This document shows positions 11,677 to 43,244 of a stretch of DNA of 64,000 nucleotides, in pieces. The position numbers were made by a program, and so were the translations under genes. The DNA is taken from NCBI RefSeq assembly GCF_024296685.1, contig NZ_CP100763.1, forward strand, positions 372,001 through 436,000, read 5' to 3'. The stretch comes from Natrinema marinum. GTDB taxonomy: Archaea; Halobacteriota; Halobacteria; Halobacteriales; Natrialbaceae. The stretch's first letter is position 1, and each line of letters opens with the position of its first letter. Under the pieces are notes generated by a model. The model saw only the letters and a list, made by a program, of their open reading frames with translations. It made no database searches and was not told where the DNA came from.

Positions 11677-12999
11677 ATGGCCGAGGAAGACGGCGAACTC
11701 GGATTTCTCGGAGCGGCCTCGATCGGGCTCGGTGGGATGATCGGCGGCGGCGTGTTCTCGGTGCTCGGCGTCGTCGCGACGATTGCCGGCGCTGCGGCGT
11801 GGCTGGCGTTTACCGCGGCGAGCCTCGTCTCGATGGCCGCCGCGTACTCGTATATCAAACTCAATCAACTCAGCGACGAGCGCGGCGGCTCGGTCTCGAT
11901 GATCGAAGCGTACGTGGGGAACTCGACGCTCGCCGGGATGGTGGGCTGGACACTGCTGTTCGGGTACGTGGGCGCGATCGCGATGTACGCGTTCGCGTTC
12001 GGTGGCTTCGCCGAGCGGCTGCTGGATGTCCACTCGGTCCTCGGGTTCTCCGCCCGGCCGCTGCTCTCCGCCCTCGCCGTCGGCGGGTTCATCGCGCTCA
12101 ACGTCGTGGGCGCGAAGGCGACGGGGACGACGGAGGAACTGCTGGTCGGGCTCAAGCTGGCGATCCTCCTCGCGATCAGCGGCTGGGGACTGTACTACGG
12201 CTGGACGGTCGACCAACTCGAGTACGGTTTCGGCCACCTGACGAACACGAGTTTCCTGACTGCGGTCGCGATCTCGTTCGTCTCGTTCCAGGGGTGGCAA
12301 CTCGTGATGTACGACCAGGAGAGCATCAAGAACCCGTCGAAGAACGTGCCGCGGGCGGTCTACGTTTCGATACTCGGGGCGATCGTCGTCGACAGCCTGG
12401 TCTCGATCCTCGTCACGAGCCTCGTCGCGACGAACGTGATCGCGAACCACCCCGAGATCGCGGTCGCGGAGGCCGTTCGTCCGTTCCTCGGCGGTCTCGG
12501 CTTCGTCTTCGTGGCCGTCGCGGCCCTCTTTTCGACCGGGAGCGCGATCAACGGGACGCTCTTCAGTGCCGCCCACTTCGCGAAGGGAATGCTCGCCGAC
12601 GGTCTCCTTCCGGATCGATTCGGCGACGCCGAACAGGAGGGCGTCCCGACACAGACGGTTCTGGTCATCGGCGTCGCCGCCGCCGCGTTCACCTTCTACG
12701 GCAGCCTTCAGGGGATCACCTCCTTCGGCTCGCTCGCCTTCATGGTCGTCTTCGGCGCGATGAGCTACCTCGCGTTCCGCCAGCGCGACGCCGAGGATGT
12801 CTCCGCGTTCGTTCCCGCGGTCGGCATGCTCGGCACCGCGACGCTGCTCCCGCTGTTGCTCTATCGCCTCTACACCGAGCAGCGGTCGGTGTTCGTGACC
12901 GTCGTCGCGCTCACCGCGATCGTCGTCGGCCTCGAGGTGCTCTACTTCGAACGCAACACGCTCGAGGACGGACTCCAGACGGTCGAAAACCGGATTTAG
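11677..12999 (+). CDS. APC-family amino acid/polyamine permease
   Basis: A 440-residue membrane protein with about 12 hydrophobic segments. The first helix carries the APC-superfamily GLGGMIGGGVFSVLG motif that lines the substrate site. Other family marks are FVSFQGWQLVMYDQESIKNPSKNVPRA in two parts around helix 6 and the intracellular loop, and FSTGSAINGTLFSAA near helix 8. It probably imports an amino acid or amine by proton or sodium coupling; the substrate is unknown. Unlike many haloarchaeal relatives it has no C-terminal UspA domain. Confidence 0.88.
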   Translation: MAEEDGELGFLGAASIGLGGMIGGGVFSVLGVVATIAGAAAWLAFTAASLVSMAAAYSYIKLNQLSDERGGSVSMIEAYVGNSTLAGMVGWTLLFGYVGAIAMYAFAFGGFAERLLDVHSVLGFSARPLLSALAVGGFIALNVVGAKATGTTEELLVGLKLAILLAISGWGLYYGWTVDQLEYGFGHLTNTSFLTAVAISFVSFQGWQLVMYDQESIKNPSKNVPRAVYVSILGAIVVDSLVSILVTSLVATNVIANHPEIAVAEAVRPFLGGLGFVFVAVAALFSTGSAINGTLFSAAHFAKGMLADGLLPDRFGDAEQEGVPTQTVLVIGVAAAAFTFYGSLQGITSFGSLAFMVVFGAMSYLAFRQRDAEDVSAFVPAVGMLGTATLLPLLLYRLYTEQRSVFVTVVALTAIVVGLEVLYFERNTLEDGLQTVENRI

Positions 13000-13086
13000 C
13001 GGGTCGGATCAACGCGGGGACCGGTCGGCACTCCGACGCGGCGCAGCGGAGACGCCGGAACGCGCCACCGGGCGATGCCCGCGAGT

Positions 13087-13500
13087 TCAGTCGACATCGG
13101 GACGAGGGGCGTTCTCGTATCTGATCATCTTTTCCGATTTATCGGAAATCGTCTCGTAGATTCGTTGCAAGGTCGCCTCGGCTGCGAGCAGGTTGTGATC
13201 CTCGAGGAACGCCCGTCCCTCGTCGGTCAGCCGGTAGAACGTCCAAGGATAGCCCTGTTGGCGTCGGTCGTTCGGGAGGGTGACCGCCTCGACGATTCCG
13301 GCGTCGATCAACTTCTGGACGTGCTTGTATACCGTCGCCTCGCTCACGCTCGGGTTCAGTTGCTCGAGTTCGTACAGCGACGGCAGCCCCTCTGGGTGTT
13401 GCAGGATGTTCGCGAGGATCGCGAACCGCGTCTCTTGGGTGACGAAGTGAACGAGTTCGCGCGCGTTCGCCCCCTTCGGCGTCCCCACGTCGGTACTCAT
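13087..13500 (-). CDS. Winged-helix transcriptional regulator
   Basis: Has 137 residues. The core ELVHFVTQETRFAILANILQ, SLYELEQLNPSVSEATVYKH and VQKLIDAGIVEAVTLPNDRR shows helices H1-H3 and the wing of a winged-helix domain of the ArsR/PadR kind. The tail (LLAAEATLQRIYETISDKSE) is a likely dimerisation helix. The start at MSTDVGTP avoids a weak Arg-rich extension. A perfect 9-bp inverted repeat lies 27 bases before this start, between it and the divergent gene, and suggests autoregulation. Confidence 0.85.
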   Translation of the reverse strand: MSTDVGTPKGANARELVHFVTQETRFAILANILQHPEGLPSLYELEQLNPSVSEATVYKHVQKLIDAGIVEAVTLPNDRRQQGYPWTFYRLTDEGRAFLEDHNLLAAEATLQRIYETISDKSEKMIRYENAPRPDVD

Positions 13501-39323: not shown

Positions 39324-39631
39324 CGTGAGGATTTCTCTCTTCGTATGCCATCGACTACCCAGTGACGGAGTGACGTGTGCTGTGTGCGCCCCTCAGCGAG
39401 CGGAAATTACCGATTTCCGATCCGTCGACGATCGACGGTGTGTCGACCTGCCACAAGTATCCAGATACGAGATAATTCTTGACGGGGCGGCGAGCAACGG
39501 GCGAGGACTGCAGAGCGAACCCGGGAGTCAGCGATTACACCGGCGCCGCGCCGACCCGCGGCGGCGTGCTGATTTTCACATCTGGTATTCCGGGGGGAAC
39601 CTCCAAGAGGGTGGTACGACTTGCCGAGGGC
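39324..39631. other. Long gene-free leader region of the actin-like gene
   Basis: About 300 bases between divergent genes. A perfect 7-bp dyad CCGTCGA-CGA-TCGACGG lies at 39422-39438. I see no gene. The promoter and any leader of the actin-like gene must lie here; the best A+T-rich stretch is GAGATAATTCTTGAC near 39468-39482, which would give a leader of over 100 bases. Confidence 0.45.
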
Positions 39632-42600
39632 ATGGACTACGGTCTCGATATCGGCCCAGGGGGGATCCGGGTCGCCACCGACGCCGGCGGCGATCCGACG
39701 ATCGACTCGGTCCCGCCGATCGCGCTGGCAGTCGACGACGCGCTTGAGGCGGCGGGGCTCTCGGAGGAGAGCGCCACCGTTAGCGCGGATGGAACGACGT
39801 ACGCGGTCGGTGGGGCTGCACGGACGGCCGCTGACGCGATCGACGAGGAACCCGAGTCGCTGTTTTCGGGCGGTAGCCTCGCGGTCGATTCGGGGGCACA
39901 CGTCACACCCGCGCTGTCAGCGCTCGTCGACGACGCCGTGGGGGACGCGACGGACGGCCGGCTTTGTTACACGACGCCCGGCCCGTTCGCCGATGCGGCG
40001 GCGACCGACGACCACCGCGAGACCGTCGCGTCGGTGCTCGAGGACCGCGGGTTCGATGCGACACCGATCCACAAGGGCTTCGCCGTCGTCTACGACCAGC
40101 TCGCGGGCGACAACTACACCGGTCTCGGGATCTGTCTCGAGGCGCGCTCGACCAGCGTCGCGCTCGCGTACTACGGCGTCCCGGCGATGGCCGTCTCGAT
40201 CGAGAAAGGCCGCGAGTGGATCGTCGAGCGCGCGGCCGGCGAGACCGGCCACGCGCCGGCACAGGTCGCCGGCGTCCTCGACGAGTTCGCGCTCGACCCC
40301 GACGCGGCGGGAGGCGGGATCGAAAGCGCGCTGGCACAGGCCTACGACGCCCTGCTCGGCGAGGTCATCGCAGCGATCGGCAACGCGGCCGACGAGAGCG
40401 ATGTCCAACAGGGGCTCTCGGTCCCCATCGCCATCGCCGGCGAGGGCGCTATCGACGGCCTCGAGTTCCTCGTCGGCGGCCGGTTCGACGCGGCCGCGCT
40501 CCCGTTTTCCGTCCGCGGTGCCCGGATCGCGGACGACCCCGCGGTGAGCGCCGCCAGAGGTGCTCTCGAAGCCGCCCGCGACGATGTCGAGGCGTACGAG
40601 GCGGTCACCTGGTCGGCGGCCGACGACGGCGAATCTGACGAGACGCCGAGCGGCGCCGACGCGACGACCGAGGGCGAGCGGACGGCGCTGTCGTTCGACG
40701 AGTCGGCGATCGCCGACACGGCGGCCGACGATCGGACCGACGACGCCATCGAGCAGCTGTTCGACCGGCTCGCCAACCGCGACGACGAGATCCGAGCCGT
40801 CCGCGAGGACCTCGAGTCAGCGTTCGACGACCTCGAGTACGTCGAGGAACGGGCGGCCGCGGTCGACGACGTCGACGATCTCGAGGAGCGCCTCGAGGCG
40901 TTCGCCGACGACCTGACGGACCTCGAGACGGAGAGCGAGACGCACGCGAGCGCCGACGCCGTCGACGCGCTCGACGACGAACTCGGGTCGCTGTCGACGA
41001 CGATCGACGACCTGGAAGCCGACGTGGCCGACGTGGATGCGGCGCTCGCGGAGGCCGAGACGGCCGCGGCCGACGAGCGATCGGCGCTCGAAGACCGGGT
41101 TGACGAAGTGGTCGGCGACTTCGAGGACGTGGCCGATCGGACCGAGACGCTCGAGGACGACCTCGAAACGGTTCGGACGAGCCTCGACGACCTCGCGGCG
41201 ACCGCTGCCACCGAGTCGTCGCTCGAGGACGTCGAGGGGACCGTCTCGGAACTCGCCGACGCGATCGACGACCTGGATGTGGCTGTCGATCGGGCCGAGA
41301 CCCGACTCGACGGGTTCGCCGGTCGACTGGAGGAACTCGGAACCCGGATCGACGGCGTCTCGGAGCGACTCGAGGCGGAGAGCGAGCGAACCGACGAGCG
41401 CTTCGACGCACTCGAGTCGACGATCGACGCGGAGACCGACGCCGTCGACGAGGAACTCGCCGCGGTGCGCGAGACGCTCGCCGACCGGACCGAGGCGCTT
41501 GAGGCAGACCTCGACGCCGCTCGAGACGCGATCGGCGATCTCGAGGACGTAACCGCCGACGCCGACCGGGTCGACGCCGTCGCCGCGGATCTGGCCGATC
41601 TCGAGACGACCGTCGAGGACGAGTCGGCCGCCATCGAATCGGTGGCCCAAGACGACCTGCCGGCCCTCGAGGCGACGGTCGACGAGCTCGACGAGGCGGT
41701 GACTGGCGTCTCGGAGCGACTCGACGATGTTGACGCGCGTACGGCGACCGAAGAGTCCGTCACGGCGCTCGTGGCCGATCTCGACGCGGTCGAAGCGGCG
41801 GTCGAGACGCTCGAATCCGATCTTCGCTCCCTCGACGACGCGCTCGAGGAGCGGATCGACGACGCAGTCGCGGGCGTCGAAACGGAACTCGACGCAGCGA
41901 CGGATGTGCTCGAAGACGATGTCGAGGGGCTGACGACTAATTTCGACGCGCTCGAGGCGACCGTCGAGCGACTCGACGACGAGGCGGTGACGGACGAGGA
42001 ACTCGCCACTGCGCACGAATCGATCGACGACCACGGCGACGAACTCGAATCGGTGGCCGCGGAGGTCGACGACATCGCGACGGACCTCGCGGCCGTCGAG
42101 GAGCGACTCGACGAGGTCGACCGAGAGCTCGCCACCCGGCTGGAGGACGTTCGAAGCACGGTCGACGAGCGGATCGACGAGACGCAGGACGCAGCCGACG
42201 ACGCACGGGCGGAACTCGACGACAGAATCGACGAGACGCAGTCGGCCCTCGACGAGCGGATCGACGAGGTGCGATCGAGGCTCGAGGAGCATCGCGACGA
42301 GACCGAGGCCGTTCGAACAGCCCTCGAGGAAAACGTGGCTGCACTGGAAGCCGCCCTCGAACGCGAGACCGACGCGCTCACCGACGACCTCGGCACGCTC
42401 GAAGAGCGCGTCGACGACGGCGAGCGCAGGGCAGACAACCACGAGCGCCGCGTGGACGACCTCGCGTCGACGCTCGAGGAGGTCGACAGCGGGGTCGACC
42501 GTATCGACGACGATGTCGGGGCGCTCGCGGGACGGGTCGACGAGGCGGCGAGCGAGGACGATCTCGAGTCGCTCGAGAACGATCTTTCGGCCCTCGGCGA

Positions 42601-43033
42601 CCGCTTAGCGTCGCTCCGGTCCGAACACGACGACCTCGCTCGGACCGTCGCCGCCGGCCCGGACGAGTCGGCGGTGCAGGCCTTAGACGAGGTCCGGACG
42701 CTCGACGATGACGTCGACTCGCTGGACGAGCGGGTGACGACGGTCGCCGACGGGCTCTCGCGTCTCGAGGAGCGGGTCGAGTCGATCGACGCGCGACTCG
42801 ACGAACGCGGGGCCGGCGAGGACGATCTCGAGGCACTGCGAACGGAACTCGCGGACCTCCGAGCCGACGCGACCGCCGAGACGGCGCTCCCGTCCGCGGT
42901 CGCGGCCGGTGGCGGAGGCGCGGGGATCGTCGCCGGAGGCGTCACCACGCTGGCCGGCGACGCCGTCGTCGGAGCCGGCGCAGTCGCTCTCGGCCTCGTC
43001 TTACTCGGCGTCGCGATGCTACGGGCCCGCTGA
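39632..43033 (+). CDS. Actin-like ATPase domain fused to a very long coiled coil and a C-terminal membrane anchor
   Basis: Has 1133 residues. Residues 1-325 resemble an actin/MreB/ParM-fold ATPase: a first phosphate-type loop MDYGLDIGPGGIRVATDAGG, a second GLGICLEARSTSVALAYYG (about 164-182), and an adenosine-site-like IAIAGEGAIDGLEFLVGGRF (267-286). An acidic linker (326-370) leads to roughly 700 residues of Glu/Asp/Leu/Arg coiled coil, with near-repeats such as DERIDETQ around residue 850. Residues 1086-1133 are Gly/Ala/Val/Leu-rich and hydrophobic, ending AMLRAR, a probable membrane anchor. Haloarchaeal actin homologues such as salactin and volactin are precedents, but identity to either is not shown. 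A cytoskeletal or DNA-positioning role is inferred. Confidence 0.75.
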   Translation: MDYGLDIGPGGIRVATDAGGDPTIDSVPPIALAVDDALEAAGLSEESATVSADGTTYAVGGAARTAADAIDEEPESLFSGGSLAVDSGAHVTPALSALVDDAVGDATDGRLCYTTPGPFADAAATDDHRETVASVLEDRGFDATPIHKGFAVVYDQLAGDNYTGLGICLEARSTSVALAYYGVPAMAVSIEKGREWIVERAAGETGHAPAQVAGVLDEFALDPDAAGGGIESALAQAYDALLGEVIAAIGNAADESDVQQGLSVPIAIAGEGAIDGLEFLVGGRFDAAALPFSVRGARIADDPAVSAARGALEAARDDVEAYEAVTWSAADDGESDETPSGADATTEGERTALSFDESAIADTAADDRTDDAIEQLFDRLANRDDEIRAVREDLESAFDDLEYVEERAAAVDDVDDLEERLEAFADDLTDLETESETHASADAVDALDDELGSLSTTIDDLEADVADVDAALAEAETAAADERSALEDRVDEVVGDFEDVADRTETLEDDLETVRTSLDDLAATAATESSLEDVEGTVSELADAIDDLDVAVDRAETRLDGFAGRLEELGTRIDGVSERLEAESERTDERFDALESTIDAETDAVDEELAAVRETLADRTEALEADLDAARDAIGDLEDVTADADRVDAVAADLADLETTVEDESAAIESVAQDDLPALEATVDELDEAVTGVSERLDDVDARTATEESVTALVADLDAVEAAVETLESDLRSLDDALEERIDDAVAGVETELDAATDVLEDDVEGLTTNFDALEATVERLDDEAVTDEELATAHESIDDHGDELESVAAEVDDIATDLAAVEERLDEVDRELATRLEDVRSTVDERIDETQDAADDARAELDDRIDETQSALDERIDEVRSRLEEHRDETEAVRTALEENVAALEAALERETDALTDDLGTLEERVDDGERRADNHERRVDDLASTLEEVDSGVDRIDDDVGALAGRVDEAASEDDLESLENDLSALGDRLASLRSEHDDLARTVAAGPDESAVQALDEVRTLDDDVDSLDERVTTVADGLSRLEERVESIDARLDERGAGEDDLEALRTELADLRADATAETALPSAVAAGGGGAGIVAGGVTTLAGDAVVGAGAVALGLVLLGVAMLRAR

Positions 43034-43112
43034 CGTCGATCAGAAGGTGCGACGACTCGGACCGACGCCACCGCTCCTCGAGCGTCGGTCCGAACGACTA
43101 CCGCCGAAGTCG

Positions 43113-43244
43113 TCAGTCGCGAACCGGTTCGACGTTGCGCATCTCGCCGCCACACCGACGGCACGTGCTCAACAGCGCGTCGCCGACCGTCTCCCGCCGG
43201 CCACACTGCACGCACTCGTACTCGCGTCGGGCCTCGAGAGTCAT
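43113..43244 (-). CDS. Mini zinc-ribbon (rubrerythrin-like) protein
   Basis: Encodes 43 residues: MTLEARREYECVQCGRRETV, then a second knuckle CRRCGGEMRNVEP. Two CxxC pairs form one zinc-ribbon of the rubredoxin/rubrerythrin type and nothing else. It is paralogous to the 46-residue protein at 45767-45907 (YECxxCGxRET...CxxCxGxxRN in both). The 3' end is convergent with the actin-like gene. Confidence 0.82.
   Translation of the reverse strand: MTLEARREYECVQCGRRETVGDALLSTCRRCGGEMRNVEPVRD

Follow-up and report, generated by a model that had tools for sequence, protein, structure and literature searches.

Two haloarchaeal actin-fold proteins are among the closest described counterparts of the gene analyzed here. 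In Haloferax, volactin (VolA, HVO_2015; Pfam family PF25216) is reported to form filaments whose tips are attached to the membrane and whose behavior is that of dynamically unstable polymers (PMC10869688). Salactin of Halobacterium (PF25229), likewise an actin-fold protein, forms polar filaments and has a phenotype in DNA partitioning; it is reported to have a charged tail at its N-terminus, and neither a rod nor a membrane end is described (PMC10746226).

We analyzed a window of 64,000 nucleotides from the genome of Natrinema marinum (3.77 Mb, single contig) and identified a gene whose product belongs to the volactin family by profile, has the fold of volactin across its whole head, and falls in a sister clade of the short volactins. 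Compared with volactin, this long form adds a linker of ~50 residues, a coil of ~700 residues, and a membrane hairpin; it lacks the catalytic Glu and an intact second phosphate loop, is about 36% identical, and evolves much faster.

Other actin-fold proteins reach the membrane by different means. MreB relies for this contact on a short helix or loop within the protein and on RodZ, and carries no rod. In FtsA and PilM, the actin fold serves as a membrane-linked recruiter, of FtsZ or PilN; FtsA combines a 1C domain with a short amphipathic tail and has neither a coil nor a 2-helix hairpin. To our knowledge, no described actin joins this fold to both a long rod and a membrane hairpin; none was found in literature searches or in the text consulted from the volactin and salactin papers.

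Locus, upstream element, and descent

The sequence-only reading had placed the gene and its length correctly, as a single gene in one frame (Table 1). The conserved start codon is the ATG at 39632, with the alignment of relatives beginning at residue 1, and an in-frame TTG at 39479 is disfavored because it lies upstream of the conserved noncoding element. Chance was excluded as the origin of the frame because it is conserved in 88 of the 125 genomes of the family; a large antisense ORF (40342-43215, minus strand) would be only the GC-rich mirror of the coil. The gene stands alone, with pckA divergent upstream and an MFS gene convergent downstream. Many genera of the family have it in this slot, a pattern that speaks for old vertical inheritance. 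No operon partner was identified at the locus, the long form standing alone between these 2 neighbors in most loci, and no Rfam match was found at the long-form locus. Between the long-form gene and the MFS gene, a 43-codon ORF (43113-43244, minus strand; MTLEARREYECVQCGRRETVGDALLSTCRRCGGEMRNVEPVRD) was noticed by eye, encoding a small, zinc-ribbon-like protein with 2 CxxC motifs.

Table 1. Features of the long-form volactin locus, in window positions.
Feature	Position	Strand	Basis or detail
Conserved upstream element, 2 boxes	39573..39611	+	20 invariant columns (3 are the ATG, 17 outside it) in 32 loci
First box, TTTTCAnnTCTGGTAYT	39573-39589	+	Invariant columns among 32 loci
Second box around GGGGAACCTCCAAGAGGG, CCAAACnnCCAAKAGG-like	39594-39611	+	Invariant columns among 32 loci
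Long-form volactin paralogue, probably membrane-tethered, 1133 aa	39632..43033	+	Single gene
Actin-fold head, residues 1-317, Volactin PF25216	39632..40582	+	Pfam profile, AlphaFold, structure comparison
Phosphate loop 1, GLDIGPGGIR	39641..39670	+	Asp6 kept in 44/46 long forms
Lys148 in place of the invariant Glu of short and viral volactins	40073..40075	+	Catalytic residue lost
Degraded phosphate loop 2, TGLGICLEARSTS replacing TGLGISFGAGMTN	40118..40156	+	Motif alignment
Adenosine-site segment, AGEGAIDG	40427..40465	+	Second Gly in 41/41 long forms of the family; first Gly mostly replaced by Ala
Acidic low-complexity linker, residues 318-369, opening with conserved DDVEAYEAVTWS	40583..40738	+	Conservation among long forms
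Motif DDAIEQLFDRLANRDDEI at rod start, candidate dimer seed or docking site	40739..40792	+	[LM]F[DE]RL in 38/41 family long forms
Coiled-coil rod, residues ~372-1078, without Lys	40745..42865	+	Heptad periodicity
Membrane helix 1, glycine-rich (AAGGGGAGIVAGG), residues 1086-1108	42887..42955	+	Hydropathy
Membrane helix 2, residues 1111-1130, adjoining basic C-end (RAR)	42962..43021	+	Hydropathy

In the 32 loci, the spacing between the upstream element and the ATG is nearly constant. Its first box occurred once per genome, and upstream of the long form only, in 13 of 13 genomes with a match, and a search with this box for a co-regulated partner returned none. The element is probably a promoter or regulatory site, with a promoter, an operator, and an mRNA leader as candidates.

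Among the 88 family genomes with a long form, 87 had frames of 539-1564 residues and 1 had a fragment of 275 residues; a further 36 genomes carried short volactin only, and 1 carried neither. Long forms of 780-909 residues were also identified in 5 genomes of 2 further families (f7 and f10). None was found outside these 3 families, and most of the haloarchaeal families sampled were without one. A second match of the short type was present in all 88 family genomes with a long form and likewise in the f7 and f10 genomes. In the window genome, a short volactin is encoded at G000:C1:833890-834861, 422 kb from the long form (411632). The long and short genes are often 45-90 kb apart in several genera (e.g., G005, G009, G014, G168, and G408), and this nearness may reflect the original duplication.

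In a tree of 78 heads, all 46 long forms made up one clade (SH-aLRT 98), sister to the short volactins, with the branching order of the 5 outer long forms less secure within the clade on their long branches. The window protein fell outside the short-volactin clade and is therefore not a VolA orthologue. By this tree, the long form is an old volactin paralogue with a single origin by duplication. Short volactins across the order were 78-97% identical to that of the window genome, and long heads were 28-75% identical to the window head; judged by these identities, short volactin is nearly frozen and the long form has diverged fast. In genome G015, the long-form head is split over 2 frames (G015:C3:674556-675535), a possible frameshift or assembly error.

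Actin-fold head, rod, and C-terminal hairpin

The N-terminus had been read as actin-like, and both profile and structure agree. The head matched the Pfam Volactin profile at 392.7 bits (cut-off 35; E 2e-117) over profile positions 1-321 of 321, and its AlphaFold model reached a pLDDT of 88 and a pTM of 0.88. This model was built on an input of 22 sequences, with viral volactins included and short haloarchaeal volactins from the genome searches left out, and replaced a poor model from 6 sequences (pTM 0.49). Over residues 1-323, structural Z scores were 26.9 to MamK, 25.3 to BeeR, and 24.8 to MreB, at 14-19% identity, and in the range of 23-27 to MamK, MreB, and actin; in Foldseek the best E was 3e-11, with FtsA and PilM among the matches. 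The 2-domain actin fold is thus present in the head by both model and Z score, which makes it a member of the actin superfamily. Against PDB sequences, a profile of the long heads gave only a marginal FtsA match (E 0.02), and the short-volactin profile matched BeeR and FtsA (E 0.003). The sequence-only reading had named both salactin and volactin as possible kin; the volactin half held, whereas Salactin PF25229 gave no match to the head among Pfam families at E up to 1. MreB PF06723 gave no match to the head either, and the match to PF06723 in the same genome was a DnaK-like protein (L001).

Conservation is uneven along the head. With subdomain borders that are approximate, being drawn from predicted secondary structure and the borders in MreB, pairwise identity among the core long forms was 37-49% in the N-terminal domain IA/IB parts, 67% in the hinge and IIA-N, 60% in IIB, 55% in the IIA helix, 75% in IIA-C, and 71% in the C-terminal part of IA, against 81-95% throughout in short volactins. 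By segment identity, domain II of the long-form head is conserved (55-75%) and the N-terminal parts of domain I are much less so, with subdomain IB the least conserved part. Invariant Gly and Pro positions and Trp196 were also identified in the long heads.

The nucleotide site departs from that of short and viral volactins. Glu152 (short-volactin numbering; INE of the connect-1 segment) was invariant in the 32 volactins compared, 16 short and 16 viral, and occurred in 0 of 46 long forms, where the 41 family members mostly carry Lys (18), Arg (11), or Thr (8). When short and viral volactins were profile-aligned with the DnaK-like protein of the window genome, Glu152 coincided with the INEP Glu, and the GAG loop with GGGT. 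We take this position to be that of the catalytic water in the actin/Hsp70 fold (Gln137 of actin). Gly176 of the second loop was kept in 3 of the 41 family long forms and in 3 of the 5 outer ones, and the remark that this loop is unusual for an actin proved apt. The actin ATPase motif set is therefore incomplete, with the Asp of loop 1 kept, the adenosine Gly partly kept, and loop 2 and the catalytic Glu lost. Because the Glu is absent throughout and loop 2 is degraded, ATP hydrolysis has probably been lost, and the earlier label of ATPase is not supported; nucleotide binding may be retained, Asp6 and the adenosine Gly being mostly kept.

The predicted long coiled coil was confirmed by a hydrophobic period of 3.54 in the rod (power 7.8 vs 1.8 ± 0.24 in shuffled sequences), similar in 11 relatives. 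The short repeats noted in it are heptads; no strong tandem DNA repeat was found. If fully helical, the rod would measure about 104 nm, at 0.1485 nm per helical residue. The sole conserved sequence of the rod is the stretch DDAI-x-QLFDRLANRD-x-EI (LFDRL-NRD) at its start; [LM]F[DE]RL was absent from all 5 long forms of f7 and f10, and neither the LFDRL motif nor the C-terminal hairpin had a convincing second occurrence in the window genome. Across long forms the rod spans 180-900 residues, and this pattern of a variable rod with conserved ends suggests a spacer between 2 working ends. Kinship of the coil with SMC or Rad50 was ruled out, the matches being coil-only and far under cut-off and the ATPase head missing.

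The hydrophobic C-terminus, already read as a membrane end, is a 2-helix hairpin rather than a single helix and was found by hydropathy at the C-end of all 46 long forms. In the rods, the 19-residue mean hydropathy was never >1.11. Hydropathy and the basic C-end suggest that the hairpin is inserted in the cytoplasmic membrane and that the head lies on the inner side.

Proposed role beside short volactin

We propose, with a probability of about 45%, that the long form is a membrane-tethered, hydrolysis-deficient volactin paralogue working with the short volactin of the same cell. The hairpin would be seated in the cytoplasmic membrane, leaving both the head and the C-terminus in the cytoplasm, and the coil would form a parallel dimer holding 2 heads up to ~100 nm off the membrane. 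These heads could bind volactin filaments or filament ends through the conserved surface of domain II and, without ATP hydrolysis, would not turn over with the filament; they would thus serve it as a stable tether to the membrane, as a cap, or as a nucleus. This proposal draws on a Volactin-family head that has lost the catalytic Glu and retained domain II, on a single sister clade to short volactin whose members never occur without it, and on a hairpin present in every long form and joined to a coil that is free of conserved sequence except at its start, as expected of a spacer. The company of short volactin is weak evidence for a tether because nearly all family genomes have short volactin anyway. 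Counting against the proposal, the 2 genes lie in separate operons and no promoter box is common to them.

In Haloferax, it is the tips of the volactin filaments that reach the membrane, yet no long form was identified outside 3 families, so it is not a general tip anchor; as a tether, it would be a lineage-specific addition. It is also dispensable, since 36 of the 125 family genomes carry the short form alone. Within one large haloarchaeal family, the long form is a testable candidate for attaching volactin filament tips to the membrane, and it could be transferred to Haloferax volcanii, whose volactin has been imaged. Should it act on volactin, the duplication and disabling of the filament protein would have given archaea an actin-related accessory protein of their own. 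The polar filaments and chromosome positioning once suggested for this protein are the phenotype of salactin; nothing in the long form points there, a role in DNA partitioning is not implied, and the evidence favors an accessory role beside the ordinary volactin of the same genome.

A bolder version of the volactin tether, by analogy with Arp2 and Arp3, strikes us as rather unlikely. Here, a nonhydrolyzing, membrane-bound actin-related protein would nucleate or cap the dynamic and evolutionarily frozen volactin from the tip of a rod of ~100 nm, uniting actin, tether, and nucleator in one polypeptide with an actin/Arp-like division of labor. The analogy extends to the proposed logic of a divergent paralogue beside the main actin, and kinship beyond the fold is not claimed.

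It is unlikely that the head is a plain docking module, an actin fold reused on a membrane-bound spacer for another partner and independent of volactin. FtsA and PilM among the structural matches and the fast evolution of the head would suit such a module, and the LFDRL-NRD motif and the hairpin could be partner sites, but in most loci the gene stands without an adjoining partner in its slot between pckA and the MFS gene, and the long form is always found with its sister volactin.

We also doubt, somewhat more strongly, that the heads polymerize together, with rods and hairpins making a self-sufficient, membrane-linked cytoskeleton, which is what the sequence-only reading had suggested, minus the ATPase. 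Domain II carries a main longitudinal contact in actin-like filaments, and it is conserved here within a complete actin fold (residues 1-323) that may still bind nucleotide through Asp6 and the adenosine Gly. However, all 46 long forms have lost the catalytic residues, and conservation is lowest in subdomain IB, which forms part of the second longitudinal contact. The heads of close relatives also differ by 25-50%, whereas the filament actins of the family are nearly frozen.

A decaying duplicate heading for loss, without a selected function, is very improbable. Decay would fit the fast evolution, the lack of a long form in 37 of 125 family genomes, and the possible frameshift in G015, but the frame is open in 87 of the 88 family genomes with a long form, the chromosomal slot is kept in many genera, and the Gly, Pro, and Trp196 positions, the upstream box, and the hairpin are all conserved. 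Least credible is an SMC-like or chemoreceptor-like coiled coil that acts on DNA or in signaling and whose N-terminus is coincidental, as the matches to SMC, Rad50, and ASRP profiles cover the coil only and fall below curated cut-offs (ASRP, 109.9 of 300 bits; SMC, 94 of 567), the protein has no Walker A motif anywhere, and no signaling domain occurs among the best 25 Pfam matches.

Further matches to the volactin family

Many haloarchaeal genomes of family f12 and others had only weak matches to the Volactin profile (positions ~233-319) in frames of ~350-400 residues, which are probably salactin-like actins. One genome of family f4 (G143) encoded 2 full short volactins with identical scores and a third copy in 2 frames (G143:C4:12424-12774 and 12765-13352).

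Volactin-family actins were also common on viral contigs, with 203 relatives in one scan of IMG/VR (L093-L173; e.g., L120:5001-6002 and L103:5001-6014) and Pfam Volactin E values down to 1e-68. No match to PHROGs v4 was found for them. These proteins, which begin MAKGLDVGTS, share 35-38% identity with the short volactin of haloarchaea along the full length and keep the catalytic Glu and loop 2 intact. Their neighbors include phage DNA polymerase, clamp loader, and HNH genes, and they are possibly a phage-borne actin family. Further members were identified in the uncultured phage records LR745208.1 and LR756511.1, of 485 and 595 kb.
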